Shown: one piece after another, positions 1,872 to 62,048 of the stretch
Numbering within the stretch: position 1 is the first letter of the stretch
Layout of the letters: each line of letters begins with the position of its first letter
Assembly: GCA_030710605.1 (NCBI GenBank)
Contig: CP092877.1
Coordinates: 71,569,524 to 71,633,523, forward strand
Origin: Cordylochernes scorpioides
Taxonomy: Eukaryota > Arthropoda > Arachnida > Pseudoscorpiones > Chernetidae
Direction of reading: 5' to 3'
DNA length: 64,000 bases
Made by a program: the position numbers and the translations under genes
Notes under the pieces: generated by a model
Told to the model about the DNA's origin: nothing
Databases searched by the model: none
Seen by the model: only the letters and a program-made list of their open reading frames with translations

Positions 1872-2159
1872 TAAGGAGAAAAGATTTTTATTCAATTAAA
1901 CTTGTGACAAGCTTTCGGGCAGTCACGCCCTTCAACAGGTAATAAAAAGAATAATTGACTATTAAAATAGGAAAAAAAACTGAGCTTTAAACAAAAATGA
2001 TACAACTGCAGCCTGGCCGCGAGAAAACGTGAATTTTTGTTTAAAGCTCAGTTTGTTTTCCTATTTTAATAGTCAATTATTCTTTTTATTACCTGTTGAA
2101 GGGCGTGACTGCCCGAAAGCTTGTCACAAGTTTAATTGAATAAAAATCTTTTCTCCTTA
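1872..2159. repeat. Foldback with 126-bp arms carrying a hammerhead-like motif
   Basis: Arms 1872-1997 and 2034-2159 are almost perfect inverted repeats around a 36-bp spacer. Each arm carries CTGTTGA-A-GGGC..GCCC-GAAA (right-arm copy 2093-2118), a hammerhead-like core. It resembles a head-to-head pair of Penelope-like terminal sequences. Confidence 0.75.
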
Positions 2160-9765: not shown

Positions 9766-12700
9766 GTTAGTATATACATTTAAATTGCAAAAATGTGCGC
9801 ATCACTTTCAGGCCTATATACTTGAATATTATTCTAATACCTCTAATTTCTTATCTACTCAAAGTAACTTTTATGAATAGACAATTTTTAGATTATCTAA
9901 ATAATTATTAACAGATCTAATTATATATTAAACAATATACATATTTTATGCCTTTTTTTTGTAATACATATTTATATTTGAAAAATTGATTGTTTATAAA
10001 ATTGTTTTGAATTTTTTAAAAAGAAATCCTCCACCTATTTCTATTATATTTATTTTGTCTATTTATTATAATAATAATTAAAAAAAAGCATCCACAAAGC
10101 CTTTTATATAATTAACAACAAAAGATACTGAATTGTTTACATTAAATTCTAACCTAGATTTAGCAAGCTCTATTTTTCCCTTTGTCATGGAACTATATTA
10201 ATTAAATGAAAGTTATCTAGCACTAATGATTGTGCTTATTGTTTTAACTTTAAAAAGCCACTTTTTTTTAAAAATGTGTTTTTATCATAAATGGCCAGAT
10301 TAGATAGAATATTGATGCCTTTTTTTTATATATAAATAAAATTAACTTAAAAAAAAAAGATATTGAACATATTCTGTTATGATATAAAATTGCCATATAT
10401 ATCATAGTAATTGTTTGTTATGATACCAATATAAATTTAAATTTTACAATTTACTTCCTCCTAGAAGAAATAGCAGATTCTACAGTTGGAAAAGCAATAA
10501 ATGAAGTTTTTTTTTTTTTGCTTATCCCTAGTACACGTGGTACAAGCCATGATAATCATGGTGGGTAGTTAGCGACTGCTTTTACTGTAAGTGCACCACA
10601 TGTCTACACATGTGAAAAGCAGTTCGACTTTGCACTTACAAATGTGCCAGAGCCCCGTTTGGTTACTTGCACTCGCTGGTGGGGTCGCCCACTTTTAGAT
10701 TATACAGTTAAACCTGTTTATAGCGCCCCCTCTAAATTACACCTTCCTCTCTATAGCGCCCTATTTTAAATACGTAGTACGATGCGATTTACATTAAAAG
10801 TGACCTGTCTATAGCACCCTATTTTGGTGAGTCCCAAGAGGGGGCGACAGGTTTAACTGTAATTTTGCCTGTTGAAGAGCAAGAGCTCGCGGTGTTTATT
10901 TAATAAAGAAACATATTGTGAAAGGTTTCTTGAATAAGTTTATAGTTAAAGGGATCTTACTGCAAGGAAGGTGTTTGAATTTCAAAAACAGTCAGACTCA
11001 GAGAGAAAATAGAGGTAACCCGGGCTCCTGGAGCATAAATCGCCAACTACCCGGGTTGTACAGCTACAGTCTAGAGGAGAAGTCTAGTCATGGGGGGGGG
11101 GGGGAGATTGCTGAGGTGAACCAAGTAACCAGGTAGTTCCAGGCCAGCAGGGAGTCAGGAAGTAGGGGCAGGGCTGAAGTCTTGTACTCCAAGCAGAAGG
11201 GCTGTCTGTAGCCTGTGTAGCATAAAAGCTGGACTCATTGATTTGAACTATAGAAGCATGAATAGTGTGTGATGTTTTGGTAACAATCCTGTTACTGAAA
11301 TGTCGCAATATTTATTTGGATTTGATCTTATTACCTTTTTTTTACTATAGAAGCTAATTTTTAGGTGACCGTTAATGAAAGTTTTCAGGAAAATTTTAAT
11401 AGGACTGCTCCTGTAATTCCATTAAATCTCCGATGAAAGGTCCATCCTCATTGTTATATATTATCCCCATCAAGAGGTGTTCCTACAGAACAATAGTGTT
11501 TACACTGAGTTCTGTTAAACAATGACTGGAAGATATGGAAAAGTAGAGTTGAATCTCTCATGAAAGACCATCTAAAACATGGCTAAACTCCGTATCTCCT
11601 AGATGTGATCTTTTATTAGAGACTCTGTCATGTCAGGCTAGGTCTTGAGGTGTCTTTCAACGGAAACAAGTCCGATGAGAGACTGGGTTTTATCATGTTT
11701 CTCATTGTAGACCACTGTAAATACTCCGAGTTTTACTTGGGAATATTTGTTTTCTTATACCTTTACCTACCTAGAAGAACAATATATAGATATAAAGAAA
11801 GTGCAGGGGGTCGGTGGAAGGCTGGTTAAACCGTTTGGTTTTTGACCACTAGGACCCGGGTTCGATTTCCTCATTGGACACTTTTGTCTGTTTAAAAAAA
11901 AAAAATGCTCCAATGGCCCCCCGATTCTTGCAAAAGTCCAACCCCACCAGCGAGTGCAAGTAACCAAACGGGGCTCTGGCATTTGTAAGTGCAAAGTCGA
12001 ACTGCTTTTCACATGTGTAGACATGTGGTGCGCTTACAGTAAAAAGCAGTCGCTAACTACCCACCATGATTATCATGGCCTATACCACGTGTACTAGGGA
12101 TAAGCAAAAAAAAAAAGAAAGTGCAAACCAAATATTGATTGTGTGGAAACCTTCAACCTATCTTGGAAGCATTCTAAGAATGGAAGATGTAAAAGAAGAT
12201 CAGAATTGCAAAGGCTAAAGATATTTTTAGATAACTAAGGAGCTGCTTCTTCTTTCTATTCCGGCTTAATTGGCCATTTAGAGCAAGGTCTTCTAACCCC
12301 CATGGCAGACTTCCAGTGACAAAGGACCCTAGGATCTGGAAGCAAAGATGTCTCGCAGGAAAATACTAAGGAACTGCTGAGAAAGGATTTAAGTATGGAA
12401 CTAAAGAAAAGGATGCTTGAATGTGTTTTCAGTTATATAATAATCTTTGTTTTCACATAACTCTGCATATACCACAATAAAAAGCTAAAGATTCTAAAAG
12501 AGTAATCGACAAAATGCTATCTGAAATTAAAATTTTTTTTTTTAGGAAATTCAAAAAACAGTATATCAATTCAGAAAACTCCCATCTCCGCCTTTGATGG
12601 TCCCAAGCCCGAATAATAAAGAGGAGAGGGAGCAGTAACAAGCTCTTTAAAAAACCTGGGCTCAGCTAGCTCACTGATAATACCCTGTAAGGGACCTTAT

Positions 12701-15700
12701 CCAGGGATACAAGAGTGTTTGTACTCCATGTTAGGAGCGGCTGCACATGGCGTCTGTTCCTCATGTCAGAAGTGGTAATTTATATTGTAGCTAAGTCAGC
12801 CTGCTACTGAGTAGTGCTCCCAGTTTTAATGACAACAGACTACTTCACCCAATCATGACAGTTGTAAAGTAACAAAGCAGAGAGAACTCCCACATTATTT
12901 ACAAGAACAGCTCGGGTCAATCAACTTGTTGGTCAACCAGTTGGTCACTTGTGTGGATGGTATATTGGGGTGACAAAGATTTCAATGGAGTGTACAGCCT
13001 TCTAAATAAAATTATAAAAAGGAAGTTGGCAAGATATGTACTCTAAGAATCATCAGGATTGACTATACCTTGAAGAATGAAGAAAGAGCTAGACCTAATC
13101 TAATAGATTGGTTAATCTAATAAACTGAAAGGGGGTCGGTGGAAGATGGTTTAAACCGTTGGTTTTCGACCACTACGACCTGGGTTCAATTCCCACATTG
13201 GCACTTTTTTCTGTTTAAAAAAAAAAAAAGCTCCAATGGCCCCCGATTCTCGCAAAAGTCCAACCCCACCAGTGAGTGCAAGTAATCAAACGAAGCAATG
13301 GCACATTTGTAAGTGCAAAAGTCGAACTGCTTTTCATATGTGTAGACATATGGTGCACTTACAGTAAAAGCATTCGTCAACCTCTACCCACCATGATTAT
13401 CATGACCTGTACCACGTGTACTAGAGATAAGCAAAAAAAAAAAATAAACTAAAGGTCTGGGATTAGATGTGAAGAAAATTGCACAGACCAGGATGAAATG
13501 GTACGCTGTGATGGCCAACCTCTGTGATGAGGAACCTTAACTACCAAGGTTAGATTTAGGGATAGTAGATGGGAATAAGGTTAAATGTGCCTTTACTACT
13601 ATGGATTTGGTAACCATGTTTCTATGTGGTAGACCTGCTCAATTCAAGGGAAAGACACTATGCAACATGGTGCTCTGGTATCATGGGTGAAGCCAAGGCT
13701 ATCAGGCTCGGGGGAATGATTGAGGTGAGAAGCTGATCCTCACACAAAAAAAAAGTATTTATCAAAATCTCAACATAAAAGAGGAAGTATGTAACCCTAT
13801 CTCTCAATATATCAACAACCATAAGAACACTCAATTACCAAAAAGAGCAGGTTTAATTTATGAAGTGAAATGTGAAAAATGTGACCAATGCTATGTAGGA
13901 CAAACATCCAGAACTTTAAAAGAAAGAATGGAAAACCATGAATATGCTCTAAAACGGAATAAAATTGAGAATTCTGCACTTGTAGAACATAGAAAAATAA
14001 CAGGGCATAATAATTTTAACCTAATTGCTAAGGTATAATTTGGATACAAATAGGTAAATTTAGTACTTTTTTCTGAAGATACTAACAATGCTGTTTACCA
14101 AAACATCACAAATAGTATATATTTGGATGTGGTCTTGTTACCTTATATTATTTGAAATATATATAATAATATTTTTCAGAGAAAAATGCTCTATAGTATT
14201 GAATTTTTTTCTCCGCTAAAGAGCAGCTTCATATTAAACCGCTCAAAAAATGTTCAGAGTTTACAGATGTTGGTCAAAATGGGTTGTACCAACCATGGGC
14301 AAATGTAGCCGAGAGACTCTTGACAAAATCTACTTTAAAAATAAAAGAAAATGCTATAAATATTGTATATAAATCCTTTTACGATTCATTAGAACCTCCA
14401 TAAGAGGACTCCTCTTTACAAAGGACACTGGCTCTGCAACTAGGTTTTGTCCTTTATAGGGAGGTTCTACTGTATATGTTTCTTTAATTCTATAAATAGA
14501 TAATAAAAGAAACAAAGGATTATAACTTTTACATATAGCTTACTAAATACACTCTTTAATTTCATAAATGTCCATAAAACAACATTTGTTAATTTAGGAC
14601 CGGCATGATGTGCCAATTAATGAAGGTATTTCTCCCAGATGCCATCCTGAATACTCAAGGATTGGACACACCTTGTATGTTTGAACCAGGGGATCTCTGG
14701 GATATTTGCATATCTCTCCATATTTACATCCCTGTGTTGCCCAGGTAGCCAACAAGTCCGGCTGGCCCACACTGACATCAAGATCCCGGACTACTCCTAC
14801 TACAGGAGCAAGGATAATAATAATCCCAACAAGGCTACGGACAGGGAGAGTCAGGCCCGCAAGAATGTGATCAACTATGGCGCTACTGCAGGTGAGTCCC
14901 CCCGCACCGCATTGCTGTGACCTCCACACCAACATAGTAATAAGAAACAAATGTTTTCCTTTCATCTATGGACAATGACTTTCCAGAATTGTTGCAAGGT
15001 TTTCCCACTATATGTACTAAGTGCAATTCTCAACCTGCAACCCCAAAACACATTATTGACTGTATTGACTCATCCATTGATGAGCTTTACTCTTCCCCAG
15101 CAGACACCATCAACAAGCTTTACAAGCTTGATACCTTAATATGATTGAGTGGAGATGAAGAAGACAAATGTTTTCCCAAACCCAATCAATTATTTGAAAA
15201 AGTGGAAGAGTGTACTGGACTCAGGTGGATACATATCTCCTGATTATGTAACTAAAAGTTGCTGATGGCTTGTGTCCTCTGTCAGAATATATATCAATTA
15301 ATCATTCATTTTTAATTCTTCCAGAATTGGTCAAATACCCTTTCTGGATTCATAAAAAAAAAAAAAAAAGGGGGGTCGGTGGAAGGCTGGGTAAACCGTT
15401 TGGTTTTCGACCACTAGGACCCGGCTTCGATTCCCGCATTGGGCACTTTTTTATATTTAAAAAAAAAATGCTCCAATGGCCCCCGATTCTTGCAAAAGTC
15501 CAACCCCACCAGCGAGTGCAAGTAACCAAACGGGGCTCTGGCATTTGTAAGTGCAAAGTCGAACTGCTTTTCACATGTGTAGACATGTGGTGCGCTTACA
15601 GTAAAAGCAGTCGCTAACTACCCACCATGATTATCATGGCCTGTACCACGTGTACTAGGGATAAGCAAAAAAAAAAAAAAATAATAAAAAAAAAAAGCTA

Positions 15701-18700
15701 ACCATGTATGTACGCACAACGAAATGTTTTCCTTGCAGAATTCACCGAAGTCATCATGTCCATCACTAGAGACATCCAACACAAAGAAAAGATCCTTACA
15801 GGCAGGCAACAAACAAAGATGTCATATTGGGTAAAGAAATACCAGTTCCCGCAGTCCGCAGCCTTTCCAAACAATTCATCTAATGGAATAGTTAACTTGT
15901 CCTCGATTCCCTTATCGGAAAAGGAGGAAAGGGTGTTAGCATTGGGGTTACATTACGTTCCTCCCGACAAGCCCGACATACCCAGGTTAATAGCAGGAGT
16001 GGAAGGTGCACTCAAAAACCTCAACCATATGGAAACCCTCAGGATTAGACACGCAGTTACCCAGGTCTTGCGCAGGCCCTATCACTCAGTATCATATGCC
16101 CGGGATCATCGCTCCCTCATCCAGAAGCTAAAAAAGAATAGTTCGCTGGTAATCACCAAAGCAGACAAGGGAAACCAGACGGTGTTGATGGATAGAGCTG
16201 ATTACGAAGGAAAAATGATGAACATACTCGTGGACACATCCACTTTTACGAACATCTCAACATCTGCGAAAGACGCCATGATCAAGGGCTACAAGTCATC
16301 ACTTAGGAACTTGATGAAGGCGAAGCAGATCACCAGGGCACAATTAACTCAGTTCACCGGTTCCCTCACACGGGATGCGTACATATATGGTGCTCCAAAA
16401 ATACACAAGCCTGCTGTACCACTCCGACCCATCATCGCATACCACCTCTCCCCGGCTCACACCTTAGCTAAATATCTGGCCCAACTATTATCCCCTATCA
16501 TGAGGAACAATCCTAACCAGTACAACATCACACACCCACCCAGTTTCGTTCAGGAGATCACACAAATGCAGCTACCCGCACATCACACTATGGTTTCATT
16601 TGATGTCACAGCGCTATACCTCTCCCTTCCACACGCCCTCATTTTAAACAAATTACAGTCATTTCTCGAGTCAGCAGGTATTCAAGACCAAACAATAACC
16701 CTGATAACCCAGCTAACGTCCTTATGTCTTTCCATTAGCACCTTTACGTTTAACCACCAGCATTATAAACAGATCAGAGGCACCCCAATGGGCAGTCCTC
16801 TTTCATCCATAGTCGCTGAAGTCGTGATGGGGTCCTTGGACCAGTGGATCAATCAGATGCATTCTTCCGACATCCATTATTGGAGGAGGTATGTGGACGA
16901 CATCTTCTGCATAATCAAACCGAATGAGCTCCAACCTATTCTTAACACTCTACATTCCTTTCACGCAGACATCAAATTCACATACGAAACAGAAACAAAC
17001 CTTGTATTGCCATTTCTGGACATCCTCATTATCCGCACTCCACACAGATTGCACACAGCAGTTTATTACAAAAAGAATATCCCACCCCTATACACCCATT
17101 TCTCCTCCAATAGCCCGATAGCCTATAAAGTAAATACAGTCAGGACTTTAACCAAAAGAATACATACGCATTGCTCATTACCTATATTCAAAGCCATAGA
17201 AAAAAACAGAATTACCACCCTTCTAACCACTGCAGGATACCCAAGAAAATTCATAGATAAACACACGTTTGATCCCACTGCTCCGAGGACCTCCACGACT
17301 TATAGAGCAGTCTGCTATCTTCCATATTCCACGTTCTCTGTTGCCATTTCCAGAATCCTTCGCCCATATGGCATCCAAGTTTATTTTAACAGCCCTCCCA
17401 ATCTTGCTGCCCTCCTCAGGAATCCTATCACCAAAGCAGACGCACCCAACAATCCCATCCACTCCACCGGAGCAGTATACGCGGTTTCTTGCCAGGATTG
17501 CCCAGCCTCCTATGTGGGAGAGACTGGCAGAACCGCGTATATCAGAATCACCGAACACAAACGAAATATAAACAATAGAGACCCGAAATCACTTATATAC
17601 CAACATATTTCAAACACTGGCCATAACTTCAACTTAGATCATCCTAAAATCCTATATCAGCACATAAACAATAAGCAGCACAGATTGGTACTGGAATCCA
17701 TCATATCAACACAAACAAACAGCATAAATAGAAAAATAGATCTACCGGAAATATATCATATCATATCTCAATAGTTATACCGTGATATACTCGGGTGTGT
17801 GGTCGGGTGGAGTGGACCCCAGCTTGGTTTTTCTGTGTTGAGATGTTTTAAAATTTTACTGGTTTTAAATGTTACGAAATTTTAAAGTGTCACACGGCTT
17901 ACATACAGTGAATATCATTATTTTACTTAACTTTTATCGTATTTAACAGTTTTTGCCATAATTCCATCTAAATTTTAAAAATCTATAAGTTCATTTACAT
18001 AGTTTTATTTTTATATTATTTTTATAGTCATAATTCCTATTTCTATTTTATTACGTTTGAAATATCACCCGCATGTAAATTAATATGTTGTATATAATGG
18101 CTCAAGCGCGCTTATACCCTGTTAGTGTAGTCATACTAGCCACGCCTGTGGAAGAACCGAAAGGTTCGAAAGCTTGCAAAAGTATAATAAAAGAGGCTCC
18201 TCCGCAAAACTTTGGATTCGTTGTGCGTTTATACTGTTTATACGGAGTTTACCTGTATAACCATGTATGTGTTTTGGGCTTTTGGCCCTCATTAGTGTGG
18301 TGCATGCTGTACCTCAACAACCAAAAAAAATTCAGGCATCCTGAAAATAATGAAATAGGTATTTAAGGCCAGGAGTACGTGAGAACATCAAACAACATGT
18401 ATGTGGTTAGCTTTTCTTGATTAATGAAGAATGGGTAATTCTGTAATAATTAAAAGTCAGCAGTTGATATTTATTCTGATAGATGGCTAAGCCATCAGCA
18501 ACTTTTAGTTGCACAATCAGGAGATGCCTTTTTCTATAAACTATTGCCATAGCTTTATTGGATACCTTTGGAAGGCTGGTCACATCTTGAGGAGCCTGAG
18601 GTGGTGTAAATTTTACAAGAGATATAAGTGAAGACCACCCCTAGGTGGTGACATGAATTATTAAGTATGGTAACAACACCTATTTAGAAAATGGATTACA

Positions 18701-20598
18701 TATATTCTCAATTTAAAACCAAGGCAAGCTTACCATGATGATTCAAATAGAAGATACTTCGGCCATTAAATCTTTTTTATTGTCTCGACGTTTCAACAAA
18801 AATCTTTTGTCCTTGTCAGGAGCGAACAAAAATCAAAGCATTTTTAACGCTTTGCCAAATCTTTTGATTTTTGTTCGCTCCTGATGAGGACAAAAGATTT
18901 TTGTTGAAACGTCGAGACAATAAAAAAGATTTACTGGCCGAAGTATCTTTAATTTGAAGAACTATGGATGCCGGCCAGGCAGCTTCTATCTTTACAATAA
19001 ATCTGATTATTCACAATTAGTTATCACACATATACACAAAAACTTTATTAAGATCCCTGGTCTTATACAGATTCCAGGAAAGGAGGAGAGTGTCTGCAAA
19101 TTAGTTTAAAAGTATTTACATATTGGCACAGAGGGAGGGAGCGAGTTTCAGGCCGCTCAGTCTCAGCGCCCAAAGTCGACAGCAGTCCTATGATTAGCTA
19201 TCATTTCAGATGAATCAGTCCTAAGGCCTGTGTGCATCCTCAGGTTCTCCTTCAAGATGAAAATCCATAGTATAAAGTAGCCGTAAAAGCCATAGTAGCA
19301 GCTTCAGGATATCTTCTTGATCTAGCAGCATGTGTTGAGAATTTCTGTGGCAAAAAATAATGTGGTGGTTTTTTCCCCCTCTTTGCCTTCAGCATCCATT
19401 TACCATTAACCTTATAGTAGGTTCATCTGCCTACAGAAGCAAGTTTGCAACTTGATTGACAAATCTTCTTCCTCCATATTGAGTTGGAGACTACTTGGTC
19501 CCTACCTAGCTTAGTACATACTAGAATTTTATTCAAAAATGCTCCAATGTACCCCTATTCTTGCAAAAGACCAACCCCACCAGCGAGTGCAAGTAACCAA
19601 ACTGAGCTCTGGCATATTTATTTGTAAGTGCAAAGTCTAACTGCTTTTCTCATGTGTAGACATGTGGTGCACTTACAGTAAAAGCAATCGCCTTCTACCC
19701 ACCATGTTTATCATGGTCTGTACCACGTGTACTAGGGATAAGCAAAAAAAAAAAAGAATTTTATTCTGGACCTGTTTTAAATCTAGTGTGCTTTAAATTG
19801 AGACATAACTGCAATATGTACAGTAACCCCCCCCCCCCCCCCTGTAAAGGACAGCTAGTTGCAGAGTCAAAGTGTCCTTTAGGGAGAGATGTCCTCTTAC
19901 CAGTGAGTTTCTAAATAGTAAAAATGGTCATTTTGACAATAAAAACTGTCTTTTGTAGAGAGGTGTCCTCTTGTGGAGGTTCTACTGTATTGTGTTGGCC
20001 ACCAGTTGTGTCACTACACCTTCTAAAACATGAGGTAGCAAGTATCATGAGACCTATACCTACAATTGGTTTTAAAGGAGCATTCTGTGAAGGATTGACA
20101 GAAGCCTGACCTCTGTTGTGTGTATTGACAGTTGCTGGTATGGCTATGACCATCGGAGCCAAGAACATGCTCTACAAGGTGGGAGACTACTGGAACATGG
20201 GAGCTGATGCTGTGGCTTTGGCCAACATTGAGGTTAACCTCAACGACATCCCTGAAGGCCAGTACATGTTGGCTAAGTGGCGGGAGAGGCCCATCTTCAT
20301 CCGCCACCGTACAGCTGCAGAAATCTCCAGGGAAGCTGCCGTCAATGTCAGCACCCTTCGTGATCCGCAGGAAGATGCAGAGCGTGTGAAGAACCCCGAG
20401 TGGCTGGTGGTGTTGGCTATCTGCACCCACCTAGGTTGTGTCCCCATCTCCAACTCCGGGGACTTCGGAGGCTTCTTCTGCCCCTGCCACGGCTCCCACT
20501 ACGACGCCTCAGGGAGGATCCGCAAAGGCCCCGCCCCCTTGAACCTGGAAATCCCACCCCATTCCTTCCCTGAGCCAGGAATCCTGCGTGTCGGCTAA
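9564..20598 (+). CDS. UQCRFS1: Rieske iron-sulfur protein of mitochondrial complex III (3 exons)
   Basis: Catalytic subunit of the cytochrome bc1 complex; its 2Fe-2S cluster carries electrons from ubiquinol to cytochrome c1 at the inner mitochondrial membrane. Exons 9564-9765, 14745-14891 and 20132-20598 join through two phase-1 introns with GT..AG ends to give 271 aa, close to the usual animal length of about 230-275. The ATG at 9564 is chosen because it begins a basic, hydroxylated presequence-like N-terminus. Residues 109-126 form the single membrane segment. The Rieske fold carries CTHLGC (214-219) and CPCHGS (233-238): cluster ligands Cys214, His216, Cys233 and His236, with the Cys219-Cys235 disulfide. 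No frameshift or stop was seen. The introns (about 5 kb each) are packed with SINEs, MITEs and Penelope-like sequence. The gene converges on DPM1. Confidence 0.96.
10508..10687 (-). mobile_element. tRNA-derived SINE, 3' portion
   Basis: Minus-strand copy of the family described at 11806; the tRNA-like head is absent and the copy stops at GGTGGGGTCG, next to the MITE at 10705. Confidence 0.85.
10705..10859. mobile_element. 155-bp MITE with TA duplication
   Basis: TIR CAGTTAAACCTGT / ACAGGTTTAACTG, flanked by TA at 10703-10704 and 10860-10861. Interior repeats TATAGCGCCC. Type is consistent with Tc1/mariner/pogo. Confidence 0.75.
11806..12113 (+). mobile_element. tRNA-derived SINE, full length
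   Basis: Head GGGGGTCGGTGGAAGGCTGG .. GGGTTCGATTTCC carries an A-box-like region and a B box (GGTTCRANTCC) of RNA polymerase III. A conserved body follows (CAATGGCCCC.., AGTGCAAAGTCGAACTGC.., ACCATGATTATCATGGCC) and the tail is AAGCAAAAAAA. Target duplication AAAGAAAGTGCA at 11794-11805 and 12114-12125. Ten copies, full or partial, occur in this window. Confidence 0.9.
12585..12850 (+). repeat. Dispersed repeat family (CTGGGTTCAGCTGGCCCGGC type)
   Basis: About 270-340 bp, beginning near CTCCGCCTTTG and containing CTGTAAGGGCTCC, CTCCATGTTAGGAGCGGCTG and GGCGTCTGTTCC. Five copies occur: here, 21160, 22890, 37122 and 42303. No coding signal; origin unknown. Confidence 0.7.
13131..13440 (+). mobile_element. 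tRNA-derived SINE, full length
   Basis: Same family as 11806. Flanks AATAAACTGAAAG and AATAAACTAAAG look like a slightly diverged target duplication. Confidence 0.85.
13755..14038 (+). pseudogene. Penelope-like element fragment (GIY-YIG end)
   Basis: The open stretch to TAA at 14036 reads [20 protein letters not shown], then [11 protein letters not shown] and TGHNNFN: the GIY-YIG endonuclease typical of Penelope-like retroelements and parallel to the end of the copy at 15712. The reverse transcriptase part is absent. A degenerate hammerhead-like motif (CTGAAGA at 14073) follows 35 bp later. Confidence 0.8.
14390..14473. mobile_element. pogo-like MITE fragment
   Basis: Ends in GGGAGGTTCTACTGTA and contains AAAGGACAC; short relative of the element at 23346. 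Confidence 0.6.
14745..14891 (+). CDS. UQCRFS1: Rieske protein exon 2
   Basis: Encodes residues 68(part)-116: the [14 protein letters not shown] segment typical of the mature N-terminus and the start of the membrane helix. Acceptor TTGCCCAG|GT, donor CAG|GTGAGT; both junctions are phase 1, so the frame is kept. Confidence 0.93.
15371..15690 (+). mobile_element. tRNA-derived SINE, full length
   Basis: Same family as 11806, with a good B box (GGCTTCGATTCCCG). The long A-rich tail runs up to the Penelope-like insertion at 15712. Confidence 0.85.
15756..17774 (+). CDS. Penelope-like reverse transcriptase with GIY-YIG endonuclease
   Basis: Copies element RNA at a nick made by the GIY-YIG nuclease. 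The frame is open from 15708, but the ATG at 15708 lies in host target DNA; the first ATG inside the element is 15756. Counting from 15708 (688 codons): fingers with [10 protein letters not shown] (about 150), YGAPKIHKP (about 225), [11 protein letters not shown] (about 300), [10 protein letters not shown] (about 360), catalytic YVDD at 395-398, then the GIY-YIG core VYAV (590) .. SYVG (602) and TEHKRN. No stop or frameshift. Full Penelope proteins usually have about 750-850 residues, so an N-terminal part is missing. Confidence 0.92.
   Translation: MSITRDIQHKEKILTGRQQTKMSYWVKKYQFPQSAAFPNNSSNGIVNLSSIPLSEKEERVLALGLHYVPPDKPDIPRLIAGVEGALKNLNHMETLRIRHAVTQVLRRPYHSVSYARDHRSLIQKLKKNSSLVITKADKGNQTVLMDRADYEGKMMNILVDTSTFTNISTSAKDAMIKGYKSSLRNLMKAKQITRAQLTQFTGSLTRDAYIYGAPKIHKPAVPLRPIIAYHLSPAHTLAKYLAQLLSPIMRNNPNQYNITHPPSFVQEITQMQLPAHHTMVSFDVTALYLSLPHALILNKLQSFLESAGIQDQTITLITQLTSLCLSISTFTFNHQHYKQIRGTPMGSPLSSIVAEVVMGSLDQWINQMHSSDIHYWRRYVDDIFCIIKPNELQPILNTLHSFHADIKFTYETETNLVLPFLDILIIRTPHRLHTAVYYKKNIPPLYTHFSSNSPIAYKVNTVRTLTKRIHTHCSLPIFKAIEKNRITTLLTTAGYPRKFIDKHTFDPTAPRTSTTYRAVCYLPYSTFSVAISRILRPYGIQVYFNSPPNLAALLRNPITKADAPNNPIHSTGAVYAVSCQDCPASYVGETGRTAYIRITEHKRNINNRDPKSLIYQHISNTGHNFNLDHPKILYQHINNKQHRLVLESIISTQTNSINRKIDLPEIYHIISQ
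18146..18171 (+). ncRNA. Hammerhead-like motif in the 3' region of the Penelope-like element
   Basis: CTGTGGA, one extra A, perfect 5-bp stem GAACC/GGTTC with GAAA loop, then GAAAGC. This matches the CTGNNGA..stem II..GAAA core except for the extra base. Hammerhead ribozymes are known in Penelope-like elements. I could not locate the cleavage-site strand with certainty, so self-cleavage is an inference. Confidence 0.45.
18410..18525. repeat. Foldback MITE (AAGTTGCTGATGGCTTGCGC family)
   Basis: Right end GATGGCTAAGCCATCAGCAACTTTTAGTTGCAC is inverted relative to the left ends of relatives at 20936 and 45236; the left side here is degraded. Confidence 0.55.
18742..18958. repeat. Foldback with about 96-bp arms and hammerhead-like motif
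   Basis: Arms 18742-18837 and 18863-18958 around a 25-bp spacer. The right arm has CTGATGA-G-(GACAAAAGATTTTTGTT)-GAAAC at 18881-18910; the left arm carries the inverse with changes in the CTGATGA box. The tail (CTGGCCGAAG .. GGCCGGCCAGGCAGC) to about 18998 is the sequence also found in the insertion at 3259. Confidence 0.75.
19535..19756 (+). mobile_element. tRNA-derived SINE, 5' truncated
   Basis: Body and tail of the SINE family without the tRNA-like head, in Rieske intron 2. Confidence 0.8.
19821..19987. mobile_element. pogo-like MITE
   Basis: Starts CAGTAACCCC next to a C-run and ends GGAGGTTCTACTG, flanked by TA on both sides; interior GTAAAGGACA as in 23346. Confidence 0.7.
20132..20598 (+). 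CDS. UQCRFS1: Rieske protein exon 3
   Basis: Encodes residues 117(part)-271 and the TAA stop: the rest of the membrane helix, the hinge and the whole Rieske cluster-binding domain. Acceptor is TTGACAG|TT. GC content is clearly above the surrounding DNA, as expected for a conserved exon. Confidence 0.96.
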
Positions 20599-20641
20599 AC
20601 TCCTCCTAGATACCTTTGGTTGTTGACTTGGCAGCAACATA

Positions 20642-20647
20642 ATTAAA
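20642..20647 (+). promoter_or_regulatory. Possible polyadenylation signal (ATTAAA) of the Rieske gene
   Basis: ATTAAA lies 43 nt after the Rieske stop codon. It is a common variant of AATAAA, but in AT-rich DNA chance occurrence is likely. Confidence 0.35.
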
Positions 20648-20935
20648 TAACTTAACCAGGACTCTGTTGTTGTTCTTTGCCCATATTATAGCCAGTTTCT
20701 TTGGCTTATAGTTGAGGAAAATAGCACAAAAGTGAGGACTTTTACTGTGATTAAGAGGGTGGATAAATTAAGAAAAAAATCGTGGAAATAAGTTTCTATT
20801 GGCTAACACTATCTGTGGGAATAATGCCTAAATACCTGTTCCATAATTTTTCAGGATGCCCCAAAGACCAGCTTTATTTGGTTGTTGAGCTACAGCTTGT
20901 ACCATGCTGATGAGGTCAACAGCCCGAAATGCATA

Positions 20936-21072
20936 CGTGGTTAGCTTTTCTTGATTAATCAAGAAATGGCATTTGGTTGATTGTTGAATAATTGATAATC
21001 AACAAATAATTGATATTTATTCAATAGTTGGCGCAAGCCACAGCAACTTTTAGTTTCTTGATCTGGAGATGC
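20936..21072. repeat. Foldback MITE copy 2
   Basis: Same family as 45236; TATTTATTCAATAGTTGGCGCAAGCC followed by AGCAACTTTTAGTT. Confidence 0.55.
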
Positions 21073-21159
21073 CTTTTTTTTTTTCATATATTTTAGAAGT
21101 TTCCTTTGCACGCCATGTTATATATATAATGATGGTTTATATCTCTTCTTCTTTCTTAT

Positions 21160-21460
21160 CTCCACACTGGGTGAAGTAGAATGCGTCTGCCTTTGTCATT
21201 AAGACTGGGAGCACTACTCAGTGGCAGGCTGACTTAGCTCCAAAATAAATGGCCGCCTCTGACATGAGAACAGACGCCATGTGCAGCTGCTCCTAACATG
21301 GAGTACAAATGCTGCTCATCCTGTATCCCTGGATTAGGAGCCCTTACAGGGTACTATCAGCCGGGCCAGCTGAACCCAGGTTTTATTGAGCTTGTTACTG
21401 CTTCCCCTCTTCCTTTTTCATCCGGGCTTGGGACCGGCAAGGGCGGAGTTATTTATATCT
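21160..21460 (-). repeat. Dispersed repeat family copy
   Basis: Minus-strand copy of the family at 12585. Confidence 0.7.
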
Positions 21461-21603
21461 GATTATTCAACAATAAACACAAGGTAATAAGACCAAATCC
21501 AAATAATTGGTCTTATTACCTTGTGTTTATAATCTATAATCCAAATTGTGCCTTATCAATATTCAACAATAAGTTATTCCCAAAAACACTGAAGTAAACT
21601 AAA

Positions 21604-22492
21604 CTCATAGAATTTGTATAATCTTTACACAATTGGGGATAAGAAACAGCAACATTCTCAGCAGTAATAGTCTTCAACTCTACATCTTATTTACATATAA
21701 CTTATGGGAAATAACTTGGAGATTGTTTCATCATAACACTGTATTCATTTACATATACCTAACAGCCAATAGGAAAGAAAAAAAGGGTCAGATGTTTATA
21801 ATAATAAATGTTTATTTAAAAGCTGGGAATATCCTGAATGATCACATGAGCATTTTAGATTGTATCTAAAGGGGATCGGTGGAAGGATGGTCTAAACCGT
21901 TGTTTTTCGACCGCTACAACCTAGGTTCGATTCCCGCATTGGGTACTTTTTTTTTTTCTGATAAAAAAAAAATGATCCAATGGCCCTCAATTCTTGCAAA
22001 AGTCCAACAGCAAGTGCAAGTAACCAAACGGGGCTCTGGCACATTTGTAAGTGCAAAGTCAATCTGCTTTTCATATATGTAGACATGTGGTGTACTTACA
22101 GTAAAAGCAGTCGCCTACTTCTACCTACCATGATTATCATGGCCACGTGTACTTGGGATAAGCAAAAAAGATTGTATCTAAACTCTAAAAATTATTTAGA
22201 GGATTCTCCTATCCCACGGCCACTAGATGGCACTCTGCCATCTAAAATGCTCATACGATCATTCAGGATATTCCCAGCTTTAAAAAAAAAAAATATTATA
22301 AACACCTGACCCTTTTTTTCTTTCCTATTGGCTGTTAGGTATATGTAAATGAATACAGTGTTATGATGAAACAATCTCCAAGTTATTTCCCATAAGTTAT
22401 ATGTAAATAAGATGTAGAGTTGAAGACTATTACTGCTGAGAATGTTGCTGTTTCTTATCCCCATTGTGTAAAGATTATACAAATTCCATGAG
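21604..22492. repeat. Large inverted duplication (arms about 255 bp)
   Basis: 21604-21857 (AACTCATAGAATTTGTATAA .. GAGCATTTTAGA) is repeated in inverse at about 22235-22492. A SINE occupies most of the spacer. Confidence 0.8.
21871..22168 (+). mobile_element. tRNA-derived SINE, full length, 14-bp duplication
   Basis: Flanked by AGATTGTATCTAAA at 21857-21870 and 22169-22182. B box GGTTCGATTCC is intact. It sits in the spacer of the large inverted duplication 21604-22492. Confidence 0.92.
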
Positions 22493-22496
22493 TCTA

Positions 22497-22720
22497 TGCT
22501 CCTCGAGCTGTTTGATGATAAGCAGCATCCTCTCCCAAAAGTCCTGTTTAGTACATCTAATGCAAGCCAAAATGTGTTCTGGAGCTGTAGGTGCCAAGCT
22601 ATATTATGGACAAGTGTGGTAGATTTTGTTGTTATTTTCTATCTTCAATTGCTTGAGATGGCCTGTTCTAAATGTTGTTGCTGAGAATTGTAGCTGGTTA
22701 AAATAGATGCCCTGATGGGA
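22497..22720 (-). pseudogene. LINE C-terminal fragment
   Basis: The minus strand reads, in pieces, APEHILxCIRCTKQDxWERP and LLIIKQLEEHELMEFV, a zinc-finger-like C-terminal block of non-LTR retrotransposons. Repeated at 23690 and 36420. Confidence 0.55.
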
Positions 22721-22889
22721 GATTGGAATTAAAAAGAAATGTAATATCTTATAATGTGGTATATATATAATATTAGATAATATATATATAAAAAGACATT
22801 TTTTGTGGATTGAATAAAAAGATCTCCATCCATCCAATTCAATCAATCCAAAATATGCCTTTGGGTTTATCTAAAGATTTCTTCTTTCT

Positions 22890-23240
22890 TATCTCCACTC
22901 AATCATATTAGGGTGTCAAGCTTGTAGAGCTTGAAATTTTTGATGGTGTGGGTGAAGTAGAATGTGTCTGCCTTTGTCATCATGACTGGGAGCACTACTC
23001 AGTAACAGCCCAACTTATCTCCAAAAGAAATGGCCGCCTCTGACATGAGGAACAGACACCATGTGCAGCCACTCCTAACATGGAGTACAAATGCAGCTCA
23101 TCCTGTATCCCTGGATTAGGAGCCCTTACAGGGTACTATCAGCCGGGCCAGCTAAGCCCAGGTTTTTTAGTGAGCTTGTTACTACTCCCCCTCCTCCTTT
23201 TTCATCCGGGCTTGGGATCGCCAAAGGCGGAGTTATCAAA
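22890..23240 (-). repeat. Dispersed repeat family copy
   Basis: Minus-strand copy of the family at 12585; extends through CTCAATCATATTAGGGTGTC, a segment also near 15140 and 37440. Confidence 0.7.
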
Positions 23241-23345
23241 AGATTTAAATATGGATTGCTCTATTTTCAGAACAATATATATAATACCAATAAGATAAAT
23301 TATAACTATATTTGTTAGCAAATTTAAAACAAGAGGTTTTTAATA

Positions 23346-23570
23346 CAGTAGAACCTCTCTGTAAAGGACACCTAGTTGCAGAGTCAAAGTGTCCTTTAAA
23401 AAGAGATGTCCTCTTAACAGAGAGCTGCTAAATAGTAAAAATGATAATTTTGACAATGAAAACTGTCCTTTATAGAAAGGTTTCTCTAGCGTGTCTTCTC
23501 ATAGGCACTTCTTCCCTAAAGGACACTTTGGCTCAGCAAATAAGACTTCCTTCACAGGGAGGTTCTACTG
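23346..23570. mobile_element. pogo-like MITE, complete
   Basis: TIR CAGTAGAACCTCTCTGT / ACAGGGAGGTTCTACTG, flanked by TA (23344-23345 and 23571-23572). Interior GTAAAGGACACC and GTGTCCTTTA repeats. No transposase. Confidence 0.82.
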
Positions 23571-23689
23571 TACAATTTACTGGGAATGTGTTTTTTTTTT
23601 CAATAGTATCCTCAAATATTTATAATAAATTATTATGTACCTTGGTTGAAACAATTCTCTTATCAATATTTTTTAAAATCTGGGTTTGA

Positions 23690-24060
23690 CAGTTGTTGTT
23701 GTTGTTTCTTATCCCCTTGTGTAAAGATTACACAAATTCCATGAGTTCATGCTCCTCGAGCTGTTTTATGATGAGCAGTGGCCTCTCCCAAAGGTCCTGT
23801 TTAGTACATCTAATGCAAGGCAAAATGTGTTCTGGAGCTGCAGGTGCCAAGCTACATTTTGGGCAAGTGGGGTAGATTTTGTTGTTATTTTTCTATCTTC
23901 AATGGTTTGAGATGGCCTGTTCTAAATCTTGTTAGTGTTGTTTGATGCTGTCTGAGGTTCAGAGCTCCTCCTGGGTTCACTCCACTGTACCAGCTGTGCT
24001 TAGGTGGGATTCTCCAGTTCTTATTTATTTTTGTTTTGGCTACTGTTTCTATTTCTTTAA
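23690..24060 (-). pseudogene. LINE C-terminal fragment
   Basis: Minus strand: block LAPAAPEHILPCIRCTK, then RPLLIIKQLEEHELMEFV; extends upstream into an RNase-H-tail-like stretch. Stops and frameshifts throughout. Confidence 0.55.
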
Positions 24061-24199
24061 AAGTAAGGGTTTGACAGTGATCACAGAGTGAAAAAAAAAA
24101 AAAAAAATCTTCAATTCTGTCAGAGTGTAATTTGGGATTGGCTATTTATATATATCTAGTAACTACAACAGTGAAAGAGTCCGCTGCAGAGAGAAAACA

Positions 24200-24205
24200 T
24201 TTATT
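24200..24205 (-). promoter_or_regulatory. Polyadenylation signal AATAAA of DPM1
   Basis: AATAAA on the minus strand, 10 nt after the DPM1 stop codon; it would give a very short 3' UTR. Confidence 0.6.
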
Positions 24206-24215
24206 CAGATGGTCA

Positions 24216-45942
<21,727 letters not shown>

Positions 45943-46049
45943 TCAACTTTCACAAAAATAAATTTGAATTGAAACTATATTTATCATTATATTCTTTTAA
46001 CAAAATAAAATTATTTCCTACTTGTCCTTTCTGTGATAGAAACATTATT

Positions 46050-46105
46050 GGGAGGATGGGGGGCCTGGCTCATCAGTGGTGAACCCTCCCAGTGGTTTTG
46101 CCAGT
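46050..46105 (+). repeat. Fragment of the 7430/40913 TIR element family
   Basis: GGCCTGGCTCATCAGTGGTG plus AACCCTCCCAG matches the element interior; the termini are not recognisable. Confidence 0.55.
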
Positions 46106-46254
46106 GTAATATTGTATTGGGCTACTCTGCTTATATAAAGTTTTATAAATTTATAAAAAATCTGTTACTTCCGAGGAATTCTTTTAATAATAGTTTTCAT
46201 AATTACCACAACCAGGAATTCCTATAAAGTTTCAAATATACACTTATTAACAAA

Positions 46255-46435
46255 GCTTGAGGAAGTGGAAAGTCTTTGATGAAGCTGGTCAACTTTTTTT
46301 TTTTTTAAGGAGACAGGTTGTTCACACATGGTTATCTCGTGTGTCTTCAATAAAGGTCACTGTAATATCTTTCATAGTTATTGCTTGAATCCCGATATAC
46401 ATGCTAAATGGTACAACTTCCTCAAGCTTTGTCCA
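46255..46435. repeat. Dispersed repeat with GACAAARCTT inverted ends, copy 3
   Basis: Same family as 655-865. It directly abuts the 5' end of the Helitron-like element at 46436. Confidence 0.55.
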
Positions 46436-46743
46436 TTCATATACAGTTATCAGCGTCATAATCAATTCTGTCACCGTTTGCTTTTGTGAATGGAATAAAT
46501 ACCCAAATATGGCCATTTCTCATAACCATAGGTGGTTCAGTGGTAGAATGCTTGCCTGCCATGTGGGCGGCCCGGGTTCAATTCCCGGCCGATGCATTTT
46601 TTTTTTTTTACAATTTTTAAAACTCATTTATATATTATACAAGAATGATATCCACGGCGCCAATTTATAATTGTAACAAATAGTATTTGAATAAAATCAT
46701 TTAATCGGGTAAAACCCGGGCGTTGCCCGGGTCATTCGGCTAG
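46436..46743 (+). mobile_element. Helitron-like element carrying a tRNA-Gly-like sequence
   Basis: 5' end TTCATATACAGTTATCAGCG matches the copy at 40734; 3' end GGGCGTTGCCC hairpin, GGTCATTCGG, CTAG then T. The interior is a 71-nt tRNA-Gly-like sequence with a T-run. Confidence 0.65.
46526..46596 (+). tRNA. tRNA-Gly(GCC)-like sequence, probably pseudo
   Basis: 71 nt with GGTGGTTCAGTGGTAGAATG (D arm, A box), anticodon loop CTGCCAT (GCC) and a TPsiC arm GGGTTCAATTCCC (B box), followed by a long T-run as Pol III terminator. The acceptor stem has mismatches at two of seven pairs (CCATAGG against CCGATGC), arguing against a normal functional tRNA. It sits inside a Helitron-like element. Confidence 0.7.
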
Positions 46744-46924
46744 TGAGTGTATAAAAATAGAATAGCTCAGTACAATATTAGAGTAAATAGGGAAGATTAA
46801 GTTGGCCAAACTGCTGGGAAGGTTCATCATTGCCAAGCTAAGCTCTCCCAATTACAGTCTAACCTCATCAAATCAACACCCTGAAAGATCAGAGCTTTCA
46901 GTTGAATTAAAGTAAATGTTAAGG

Positions 46925-47085
46925 GACAATTTGGGATTATAGATTATAAACATAAGGTAATAAGACCAAATCCAAATAAATAAACATTCAGTACTTTCGT
47001 CTGATGATGGTAACAACACTGTTAGCGAAACTTCACACACTATTTATTTATTTGGATTTGGTCTTATTACCTTTTGTTTAAAGTA
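46925..47085. repeat. Penelope-type repeat with hammerhead-like motif
   Basis: Outer arms CATAAGGTAATAAGACCAAA and inverse. The interior keeps the non-palindromic CTGATGA-T-GGTAAC..GTTAGC-GAAAC at 47001-47031. Confidence 0.7.
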
Positions 47086-49072: not shown

Positions 49073-49077
49073 ATAAT

Positions 49078-49453
49078 TATTGCGATTTCACCGCCACTCT
49101 GTGTTGTGACGACGATCTAAATTCTATAGAGGTAGTCACTCACCTCTATTCTTGGTCGGCGGGGTTGAAGGTTCAAAGTTAAGGCGTCGTTGTTTATAAC
49201 ACTTTTAAAATATACGACGAAAACAGGAGGGAAAACTATATTTATTACAATTTAAGAAATAAGTAAAGTATTATTTAAATATTTACACTAAAAGATATTT
49301 ATAAAAAGAGAATCGTAGATCAGGGCAAATTCTAGTGTTCGAAAAAGTTGTTTACAAGTTCTTCCTCTATTGTTTCCTCATTTTACCGCTGCATCCCCGT
49401 GGCCGCTTCCGCCGGCTTCCCATTGGCTGCTTCGGACGTCTTCTTTTCCAACA
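49078..49453 (-). repeat. 3' LTR of the BEL/Pao element
   Basis: Identical to the 5' LTR by eye. Its first about 70 bp encode the C-terminus of the polyprotein. Confidence 0.94.
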
Positions 49454-52400
49454 TTTCTCCCACCTTTGAGTTGGCGTCTCGACGACTCAAACATGGAAAG
49501 GAAAAGTTCAGTAGATCCAATCGGTTGGGTCTCTTGATGGGCCGTCCGTAACTTGACACAACATTCGGGGTATCAATGTGATGTTGCTCTTGTTGTAAAG
49601 TCAAAGGGTCCTCTTCAGTTGTCAATCGAACTTCTTGTGTGGGAGATCGCTCCGTTAGAGGGTCTCGACATCTTATCTCGGGCGTTATCTCTAAATTGTA
49701 GAGTTTTTGAATAGGTCGTATTTTATCACCTGATGAAGTTTTCACTTTCGCAACCCTCACAAGTCCGTCTTTTCCTGGATAGAGTTGGATTATTCTGGCT
49801 AACGGCCAGTGTAGTCTCTTTAAACTCTCTTGTCCAATGAGTACCATGTCTCCCACCTTGAATGGTATGGTAGTCTTCAGGCGTCTCGTTTCTTGTCTCA
49901 GGAATCCAAAATATTCGATACGAAATCGTTCTCTAAGATCTTCTCGTACACGTTTGATATATTGATATTTGCGGGAGAGGGTCTGGTTATCAATCAAGTC
50001 CAGGTCTGGAACGCCAACCTCTCTGACCTCATGTAAGAACAACGAAGGTGTCAATGGAGCGAGATCCTCACTTTCTTCAGTTAGGTAGGTCAGTGGGCGT
50101 GTGTTCATCAAGCTTTCGACGTCACACATCACCGTGGAAAGTTCTTCATATCCCAAGGAGGTTTGACCGAGAATCCTAAAGAGCAATTGTTTCATCATTC
50201 CAATCAAACGCTCCCACCATCCACCCCACCAAGGAGCACCAGGCGGTATGAATTTCCAAGTGATGTTTTTCAATGTGGGATCACATTTTAATCTCGAAAA
50301 ATCAATCTTCTTTAAAGCATTAGCCATACCTTTGAAATTAGTCCCATTATCCGAATACACAATCAATGGTCGGCCTCTTCGAGCAATAAATCGGCGGAAA
50401 GCTTGGAGGAAGGCTTCCATAGACAAAGATGTCACAAGTTCCAGATGAACTCCTCTATACACTGCACATGTGAAGATGACAATCCATGCTTTCTTCTTAT
50501 TCTTTAAGATAAGATGTCCAGTTAGATCAACTCCTACTATTTCGAAAACTGCAGCATCTCGTACTCTGTCTTCTGGTAATGATGTTGACTCGACGGTAGC
50601 TGGTGTCACGGTGAATCGTTTACAGCGAATGCATTGATTGATGATCTTCTTGACGGTTTTCCTGGATCTTAGTATCCAATAGTTTTCTCTCAGAATACCG
50701 AGGAGAGTTTGTAGACCGGCGTGCCCGTGGGTTTCATGGTTCCACCTGATGAGCAAAGAAACCAAAAAGTGATCTGAGGGCAATAAAATGGGCATTCTAA
50801 AATTAGCAAAATCTTCTCTTCTGCAAATTTTAGTTTTTATTCTCAAAATCCCTGAAGAGTCTACTAGCAACTTAAAGCCTTGTAGTTTCTTATCTTCATG
50901 CCCTGAAAACGATTCTCTCTGGATAAGTCTTATCAGTATTATTTCTGACTTAGTGATTTCCTCTGTACTGAGATCTTCTGAAATTATCTTTCTTCTATCA
51001 ATCTTGGCGTTGTTGAAGAATCTGTATATCCAGGCGGTGATTCGTACTATTCTCAAAAAATGGGAATAACGTCCAAATAAATTTTCATTTTCTCTTGTCG
51101 TACACAAGGTGTTCAGGATGGTCTTGCGCCTTTCAGAATAAACAATCTCCAAATCAGGGATAATGGTTGATTTGGGCCACTCTTCTTGGGATACCTTTAA
51201 CCATGCAGGTCCCTCCCACCATCTTGTCTCCTTAAGTGATTCTGCTGAACATCCCCGAGATGGGAGGTCTGCCGGGTTTAATCGGCCTGGTATGTGGCGC
51301 CAAGATTCGGGGGAGCTAAGATTATGAATTTCCTTAACACGGTTCATCACAAAGGCTGCCCAGTTGTCTTCCCTTTGGATCCAACAGAGAGCATTGGTCG
51401 AATCGGTCCAATAAAATCTTGGAATTTCCTCAAATTCCAGATCTTGTATGACGTTAGCTGCCAAACGAGCTCCAATCAGACAAGCCAAAAGCTCCAATCT
51501 TGGGATGGTGAGTTTCTTCAGTGGAGCTACTCGTGTTCGAGCCTGTATCAATTGGATGTCCACTCTATCTTCCTTTTCAATGCGGAGGAAAATACAGGTT
51601 GCATAGGCAAACTGACTGGCGTCGCAAAAGATGTGGAGAGTGGTTTTCTCTACATAGGAGTCCTTAAAACAAAGCCATCTAGGAATTTCTATGTTAGGCA
51701 AGTGTTTCAGTTTGCTAAACCACTTCCAAAATCTTTGTACTAAACATCCAGGTAGGACTTCGTCCCATGTCAACTTCTGTATCCAAGTTTCCTGTAATAT
51801 CAGCTTGGGAATTAAAGTCACAGGACAAGCAACTCCTAATGGATCAAATATCTTGCTCGCTATTGAAAGTACTTTTCTCTTGGTGGTTGGTCCAATTAAT
51901 TCAAAATCTTCCAAACCAATTGTCAGTGTGTCTCTATCAGTATTCCATGTTATTCCTAAAATGTTCACTTCCTTATTCAGTTGGTTCATAAGAGAAAAGT
52001 CTGTAGCGTTACTCACCCAATCTCGGAGATTGAAACAAGCTGTAGAGAGCAGTTCAGTAGATTCTTTCACGAATTTCTCCGTTTCTTCAACATTCTGAAA
52101 ACTGGATAAACAATTGTCAACATAAAAGGATGATTTCAACTGTTCAGCTGTGATTTTTAAATGTTCAGGAGCCTTATCTAAGTGGAGAGATAAGGTAGCC
52201 TTTAAAAGATACGGACTAGTGGTAATTCCAAAAACAACCCTTTTATGTCGATACGTGATTAATCTTCCGTCTTCTGTGTGCCACAGGAATCGTAAATAAT
52301 CTCGGTCTTCTTCTTTTATTCCAATTTGTAAAAATGCTTTCTCAATATCGGAAGAGACACCAACTTCATATTTCCGGAATTTATTTAAAAGTCTTGGTAT

Positions 52401-54740: not shown

Positions 54741-54859
54741 CTTGTAAACAAAGCAGCAAGTAGGGTTAGCAAGCGAGTTCCAAAATGGTCAGCTAAAAAT
54801 GTTTTTTTTTTTTTCTTTCTAGAATTTACCTTCAACTGTCCCGGCTGGGATGCCAAAAA
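54741..54859 (-). other. BEL/Pao leader with primer-binding site
   Basis: Between the 5' LTR and the ATG. TGGCATCCCAGCCGGGAC, starting five bases after the LTR, is the likely primer-binding site; I do not assign the tRNA. Confidence 0.6.
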
Positions 54860-58254: not shown

Positions 58255-58311
58255 AGTGTCGCGCCTGATTCCTTCAATCAAAGCAAGTCGACCATAAATG
58301 GAATTAGAAAG

Positions 58312-58614: not shown

Positions 58615-58733
58615 AATTGATTGTAAACGAGAAACGATAAAATATAATTTGATGAGTAATCATGACGTAAGCAATTATGATCTAAAAAATAAAGAGCACT
58701 ACAGATACCGTTATACCTAAACTATCTATTAAA

Positions 58734-61692: not shown

Positions 61693-61702
61693 GAGGGGGA
61701 AG

Positions 61703-62044: not shown

Positions 62045-62048
62045 ATAT

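Follow-up and report, generated by a model that had tools for sequence, protein, structure and literature searches.

The hammerhead-like cores that recur in a 64,000-nucleotide stretch of the Cordylochernes scorpioides genome (hereafter, the window) are very probably minimal type I hammerheads, which reside in the end repeats of Penelope-like elements (PLEs) and in short non-coding elements, and which carry a one-base variant of the core. The standard hammerhead core, among the best mapped of all ribozymes, reads C3 U4 G5 A6 N7 G8 A9 ... G12 A13 A14, with a conserved A6. Relative to it, the families with one inserted base (insert-1) add a base after A9 and, in 5 of 11 subfamilies, bear a U at position 6 (U6). 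Our data support the view that one extra base after A9 is a conserved variant, found in thousands of copies and often accompanied by a second core change.

To delineate the units, we scanned both strands of the 64-kb window for CTGNNGA, a single base, a stem of 4 bp or longer and GAAA, in that order. This strict pattern gave six matches, compared with 0.47 +/- 0.62 (maximum 2) in 30 order-3 Markov sequences: 2093, 18146, 18881 and 41542 on the + strand, 1938-1913 on the - strand (an inverted copy of 2093), and 63579, which is probably a chance match. With loops limited to 3-12 nt, the window gave five matches, in each of which precisely one base is inserted; insert lengths of 0 and 2-6 gave none, and the chance level is about 0.2-0.3 per insert length. 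A covariance model was trained on the 2093, 18146, 18881 and 41542 units, among others, and the window contains the following units:

18138..18183, + strand: family 1 unit in a PLE 3' end, covariance-model match (training sequence); core CTGTGGA (U6), inserted A at 18153, stem II 18154-18167, GAAA 18168-18171, GCTT 18172-18175, predicted cleavage after 18175
2085..2130, + strand: family 2 unit, found by the strict scan and the covariance model (training sequence); core CTGTTGA (U6), inserted A at 2100, stem GGGC/GCCC, GAAA 2115-2118, GCTT
1901..1946, - strand: inverted head-to-head partner of the family 2 unit (scan, repeat match, covariance model)
18873..18921, + strand: family 6 (B) unit, covariance-model match (training sequence); core CTGATGA, inserted G at 18888, stem II 18889-18905, GAAA 18906-18909, CGTC 18910-18913
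18779..18827, - strand: inverted head-to-head partner of the family 6 unit, covariance model E 3.7e-5
41534..41583, + strand: family 7 (A) unit, covariance-model match (training sequence); core CTGAAGA, inserted T at 41549, stem GGTAAC/GTTACC, GAAA 41568-41571, TGTC
46993..47042, + strand: family 7 unit with one stem II mismatch, covariance model E 2.7e-4
43505..43588, + strand: decayed family 7 unit (repeat match), covariance model E 0.93
43588..43731, no strand assigned: decayed family 7 inverted pair, arms 43663-43588 and 43679-43717 (repeat match)
14062..14117, + strand: decayed family 7 unit (repeat family D6), directly 3' of an endonuclease fragment
39993..40039, + strand: decayed unit near 40003, core CTGAGGA, judged by eye
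35831..35875, - strand: additional unit, covariance model E 3.6e-5

All five sites that an earlier sequence-only reading had called clear (2093, 18146, 18881, 41542 and 47001) are present where it had placed them, the last being missed by the strict scan owing to its mismatch. The weaker sites of that reading, 14073, 40003 and 43516, do exist but are decayed: 14073 and 40003 have no covariance-model match at E<=10 in the window, and at 40003 stem I (ATTCCC/GGGAAT) is retained when stem II and G12 are gone, as judged by eye. Its proposal that the units might be a variant or a dead relative is accordingly divided, the families being better read as a variant and these three single copies being decayed. 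Its several subfamilies also stand, with the restriction that 14073, 41542, 43516 and 47001 are copies of one family. It had further described the core as CTGNNGA plus an insert only, and overlooked that 2093 and 18146 lack the conserved A6 as well. In the covariance-model search that it had suggested, the Rfam hammerhead models gave nothing above cut-off and no match at E<=10 in the window; the model built on these units finds 47001 and misses 14073 and 40003. Besides the 35831 and 18779 units, which the reading did not mention, the same model added a weaker match at 10861-10896 (E 0.0089); in the decayed inverted pair, it gave E 0.058 for 43679-43717 and 2.1 for the other arm. The TGTC of the 41542 unit is CGTC in most family 7 copies examined, and stem I of the family 6 unit combines CTC/GAG with a distal A/T helix. 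The miRNA-like Rfam matches at 18776-18924 are the signal of the inverted pair.

Other repeats of the window include three LTR-type elements (25422-30759, 49075-55156 and 56949-62046), which are probably recent insertions since the reported stretches of their end repeats are 99-100% identical, and two tandem copies of a 373-bp unit, 78% alike (38490-39239). A type-P1 twister model gave sub-threshold matches (31-39 bits, cut-off 67) at 21401-21455 (-), 37118-37172 (+), 23185-23239 (-) and 42311-42359 (+), four places that apparently sit in copies of one repeat.

The single inserted base, which the sequence-only reading had noted in all clear cases, recurs across subfamilies: 10 of them, with seven different stem starts, have exactly one, as does the decayed 40003 unit, and its letter varies, being T in families 7 and 10, G for the most part in family 6 and A in the majority of families. 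U6 characterizes families 1, 2, 3, 5 and 11, and A6 families 4, 6, 7, 8, 9 and 10. In 50 kb from five blindly picked places of the genome, the strict scan returned six one-insert and three no-insert units, and none with 2-6 inserted bases; in 297 kb, mostly fetched with PLE queries, raw matches with 0, 1, 2 and 3 inserted bases numbered 8, 117, 1 and 2, with about 0.5-1 expected by chance per insert length, so that those with two and three are at chance level. Because units with zero and one inserted base are abundant and those with 2-6 are absent or at chance level, the genome contains two discrete classes, no-insert and one-insert. No-insert units, for example CTGAYGA-GGGC-CAACA-GCCC-GAAACGCGT, combine the standard core with a longer palindromic stem III, and three of them elsewhere in the genome score 24-26 bits with the HH9 model, against a cut-off of 52. 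Five no-insert hammerheads with an exact 338-bp spacing form a retrozyme-like tandem array at C1:5965536-5966911.

Genome-wide (2.62 Gb, 24 contigs), we counted 33,122 insert-0/A6, 194 insert-0/U6, 236 insert-1/A6, 14,696 insert-1/U6 and 84 insert-1/C6 matches, all of a single stem class, GGGC/GCCC with loops of 4-6, and representing copies rather than independent events; the association between insert and U6 for this stem has an odds ratio of about 10,600. The low C6 count could reflect only young families. Among the insert-1/U6 matches listed, family 2's exact unit is found, all but two have A as the insert, any of the four letters can stand at base 7 and about 30 loop sequences occur (by eye); since base 7 and the loops vary in this way, the combination of U6 and insert is common to many subfamilies. 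The association is a linkage within lineages, not a series of independent events, and it fits a rule in which U6 needs the insert and not the reverse, the insert being possible with A6 because families 4, 6, 7, 8, 9 and 10 have both.

These counts bear on two simpler explanations. It could be argued that an AT-rich, repeat-rich genome yields such hairpins by chance, and one of the six window matches, 63579, does look accidental, and the weak sites have E values of 0.9 or worse; however, the Markov controls reach only 0.2-0.5 in the window and the reversed pattern gave 0 in all five genome-wide searches, which refutes a chance origin for the families and leaves this explanation with next to no probability overall. 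Alternatively, the units could have arisen by decay from canonical hammerheads, with the extra base as a frequent mutation. Many single copies are indeed degraded, and many of the insert-1/A6 matches listed look, by eye, like no-insert families that gained a G, but such decay hardly accounts for six one-insert units and none with 2-6 in the random 50 kb, nor for an insert found in 10 subfamilies with seven stem starts and in a young family, and we hold it to be very improbable.

The conserved variant also has hammerhead pairing in stems I and II. Pairing was assessed on 11 subfamilies from the window and from fetched loci, chosen by motif (core, one base, stem II, GAAA) and leaving out L039 (a family 1 relative), within-family variants and insert-0 families; stem II pairing and most core letters were search criteria, and stem I was not. 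Over the 11 subfamilies, which for this comparison include the 40003 unit, drawn from the weaker sites of the sequence-only reading and with a stem I that had already been seen by eye, 29 of 33 positions in the first three pairs of stem I are paired, compared with a permuted mean of 19.4 +/- 2.1 (0 of 20,000 permutations reach 29), and pair 2 is standard in 11/11, with four pair types. Restricted to the six subfamilies outside the window, the count is 16 of 18 pairs, with 230 of 20,000 permutations as good. In an alignment of 10 subfamilies, from which the 40003 unit is left out, 94.4% of cells are paired versus 69.6% when shuffled, with 23 two-sided changes versus 5.9, and the covariation score is 0.775 versus 0.035-0.168 when the partner strand is slid. 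Stem II has changes on both sides in 4/4 pairs, pairing there having been a search criterion. The suggestion of the sequence-only reading that pairing is kept rather than letters is thus borne out by compensatory changes in stems I and II across subfamilies. In minimum-energy folds of single units, stems I and II form together in about 8 of 10, and other pairings are favoured in families 1 and 2; in family 2, GTGAC/GTCAC is a candidate contact between loop II and stem I.

After GAAA, most units continue with CGTC, GCTT, GCTA or GCTC, that is, a self-complementary ACGU or AGCU and then C, U or A. U16.1 is invariant in the 10 subfamilies, and complementary 15.2-16.2, U16.1 and H17, none of them searched for, occur jointly in 129 of 147 one-insert units, which provides an NUH cleavage triplet next to the stem III step; the pattern is missing in the other 18, and most of the 147 are copies of a few families, with overlapping loci counted twice. 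We infer that stem III would consist of two base pairs without a loop and would be formable only between two units, because one RNA cannot close a self-complementary ACGU or AGCU that lacks a loop.

The association with PLEs rests on the following features of the window:

15702..17774, + strand: PLE open frame of 690 aa, reverse transcriptase (RVT_1 5.3e-13) and weak C-end GIY-YIG
13724..14038, + strand: PLE GIY-YIG endonuclease fragment (Pfam GIY-YIG 23.0 bits, cut-off 22.6)
18234..18260, + strand: optional 27-bp 3' tail of family 1, from the 3' ends of 51 arms

A distance of 372 bp separates the 15702 frame from the 18146 unit on its 3' side. The GIY-YIG of this frame scores 12.3 bits (E 0.22), below the 22.6 cut-off, and the frame is probably 5'-truncated because those of many relatives are longer, about 795-810 aa. 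It matches 64 scored places genome-wide at 92-100% identity, many without stops, and at some places PLE frames stand in tandem, 2.83-2.84 kb apart. When the best 30 copies of family 1 were aligned, the core was changed in one (L017) and U6 was fixed in the best copies; U6 is thus carried by a young PLE with intact frames. The 13724-14038 fragment, 40% identical to the 15702 frame over 58 aa, belongs to another PLE. The claim that the cores lie beside Penelope-like sequence holds for 18146 (frame 15702-17774) and for 14073 (fragment 13724-14038). Elsewhere in the genome, a unit at L061:4532 lies 201 bp 3' of a PLE frame 43% identical to that of the window (RVT_1 2.3e-11; GIY-YIG 21.0 bits, E 4.2e-4, slightly below the 22.6 cut-off). 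Reverse transcriptase and GIY-YIG are thus found in one frame, and tandem frames and inverted end copies are found as well, with preferred 3' ends 27-32 bp apart where PLEs are expected to have pseudo-LTRs with an optional tail of 30-40 bp; the identification as PLE hammerheads, in several subfamilies at PLE ends, is upheld. At another locus (L084), a single family 7 unit sits inside the endonuclease part of a PLE frame resembling window 13724-14038, with about 24 bp of target missing (by eye).

Families 1 and 6 each have two preferred 3' ends, 27-32 bp apart, which agrees with the PLE tail situated between two start sites of reverse transcription (PMC11167929). Counting from query start 18060, the 51 arms of family 1 end at 173-175 (13 arms), at 201-203 (33) or elsewhere (5), so that arms stop near 18232-18234 or 18260-18262; the 53 arms of family 6 end at 152-156 (24), at 122-124 (14) or elsewhere (15), the upper ends piling up there as the query itself ends at 156. 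In these counts loci L065-L067 repeat L004, L005 and L015, and some arms figure twice. An apparent decayed no-insert hammerhead element (18277-18440) abuts the PLE 3' end at 18260 in inverted orientation (by eye).

The units are also frequently paired. Family 2 arms 1868-1998 and 2033-2163 are 98% complementary, family 6 arms 18733-18843 and 18857-18967 90%, and inverted copies of PLE ends were found at fetched loci; 21 of 24 unit pairs less than 400 bp apart are head to head, overlapping loci being counted twice and insert-0 units included. Family 7 forms foldbacks, identified by repeat comparison (no strand assigned):

40235..40348: family 7 foldback, centre in stem II
41862-41979, 42201-42310 and 43355-43472: similar family 7 foldbacks
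36901-37083: family 7 foldback adjoining a U6 snRNA piece

Scanning for palindromes centred on stem II returned four places, of which L051:32 is an artefact at a sequence edge and the other three are family 7 copies in the window; the less perfect copies at 40235 and 42201 were missed. The arms of family 7 have their 3' end in common and vary in 5' truncation (unit positions 4-72), as given by BLAST ends, which may slip a few bases, in 20 loci chosen as top matches to the full unit, a choice that favours full-length arms.

Short, palindromic and present in high copy number, such foldbacks could be MITE-like DNA transposons unrelated to PLEs, with hairpins by accident. We find this improbable, since the tail pattern of PLEs is seen in the family 6 arms, family 7 arms combine a common 3' end with variable 5' truncations, and one decayed family 7 copy is found downstream of a PLE endonuclease fragment. 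We favour, instead, the view that inverted pairs and palindromes would be products of PLE insertion, in which 5'-truncated copies are joined head to head, and that the short non-coding elements with these units are probably mobilised by PLE proteins. Both ends of the break would be extended on element RNA and then joined, as the PAc protein of Anolis cuts and extends both strands (PMC11167929); in the family 7 palindromes (40235-40348 and others), both arms would have stopped within or near stem II. The idea that the palindromes arose only by snap-back at the stem II hairpin was rejected because the truncation points vary (positions 4-72). Within the foldback at 36901-37083, 36957-37059 (-) is U6 snRNA-like (55.6 bits), as would result from a template switch between PLE RNA and U6 snRNA during reverse transcription.

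What, then, may the fold be for? In the mechanism that we propose, two units would pair through the ACGU/AGCU stem III into a full fold and cleave after the following C or U, possibly with the PLE protein as a helper, and their role would be to cut tandem PLE transcripts. Hammerhead cleavage was also considered as the source of the 5' ends of inserted copies and was rejected: of the truncated arms of family 7, 31 in all, not one begins where the cleavage product is predicted to have its 5' end (unit position 49), and the arm that comes closest, starting at 51, adjoins the U6 snRNA piece. Cleavage, if it occurs, would therefore leave no clear trace in the insertions.

It is conceivable, in this regard, that the fold is kept without cleavage and that, in the branch with U6 and insert, it serves the PLE protein as a landmark for binding or reverse transcription. 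The fixation of U6 in the best copies of a young family whose frames are intact, family 7 insertions with no clear sign of cleaved templates, and the Anolis PLE hammerhead, which cleaves only with its protein and whose catalytic mutants insert normally (PMC11167929), are in line with such a role. Yet a landmark need keep neither U16.1, invariant in 10 subfamilies, nor H17, which fits in 129 of the 147 units (no proof comes from the remaining invariant core letters, which were search criteria), and we deem a non-cleaving fold unlikely, if worth retaining, and would assign most of the remaining probability to cleavage that may be slow, dimeric or protein-helped. U6 units may be weak or dead, because A6 is conserved and its natural replacement by C depresses activity in Mg2+ (PMC3088659, PMC7151607); with Mg2+ such an A6C hammerhead performs poorly, and with Mn2+ well (PMC7151607). 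As a tentative and somewhat doubtful proposal, U6 with the inserted A would be a rewired core, in which either the insert compensates for the loss of A6 or the fold serves a non-cleavage job in insertion.

Minimal type I hammerheads of PLEs are said to have been described in Cervera and de la Pena 2014 and Lunse et al. 2017. In the accessible parts of the other literature searched, outside these two papers, neither an insert nor U6 is mentioned for PLE hammerheads; both may already be in these two papers, and we make no claim that they are unpublished. Prior knowledge covers PLE hammerheads as such, their action as dimers, the tails and the inverted ends.

The hammerhead of chrysanthemum chlorotic mottle viroid reportedly retains A6. 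Its plus-strand form is active and likewise has an additional A after A9, before stem II; as far as the consulted sections of PMC3705267 go, this A lowers the rate moderately, U there raises it and C or G is harmful. It differs in being a viroid RNA with loop contacts, and in that A10 to G is harmful (PMC3705267, same sections), when family 6 mostly has a G. The Bcep176 hammerhead also has a natural change of A6, but to C6 rather than U6, works better with Mn2+ than Mg2+, and has no insert after A9 mentioned in the portions available (PMC3088659, PMC7151607).

Also comparable are the minimal type I PLE hammerheads, which the available excerpts describe as PLE end repeats, tandem or dispersed, in thousands of copies, thought to be dimeric and with a reduced stem III (PMC6155905, PMC7761336, PMC7229834), the first two papers referring to motifs without helix III that may work as dimers. 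Anolis PAc similarly has a PLE hammerhead with stems I and II, a tail between two reverse-transcription start sites, and two DNA strands cut and extended (PMC11167929); its unit overlaps the frame start, whereas units of the window type lie 3' of frames (tandem copies also precede the next frame). Metazoan non-LTR retrozymes (PMC7229834, in part) resemble some insert-0/A6 units, which occur in short tandem copies with 338-bp spacing, but insert-1 units lie in PLE ends, often as head-to-head pairs. The Penelope elements of Adineta vaga share head-to-head inverted end repeats, a junction palindrome and a 31-bp tail; the word hammerhead is absent from that paper (PMC3846280), where self-priming on an antisense template is proposed.

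These observations bear on the purpose of PLE hammerheads, since a young PLE keeps the fold when family 7 insertions bear no clear trace of cleaved templates. If the insert does compensate for the loss of A6, this would be a catalytic core of a kind for which the literature examined holds no test. More than 14,000 natural units of one stem class, in which U6 nearly always comes with an insert after A9, constitute a covariation within the core itself, which can be tested in vitro.
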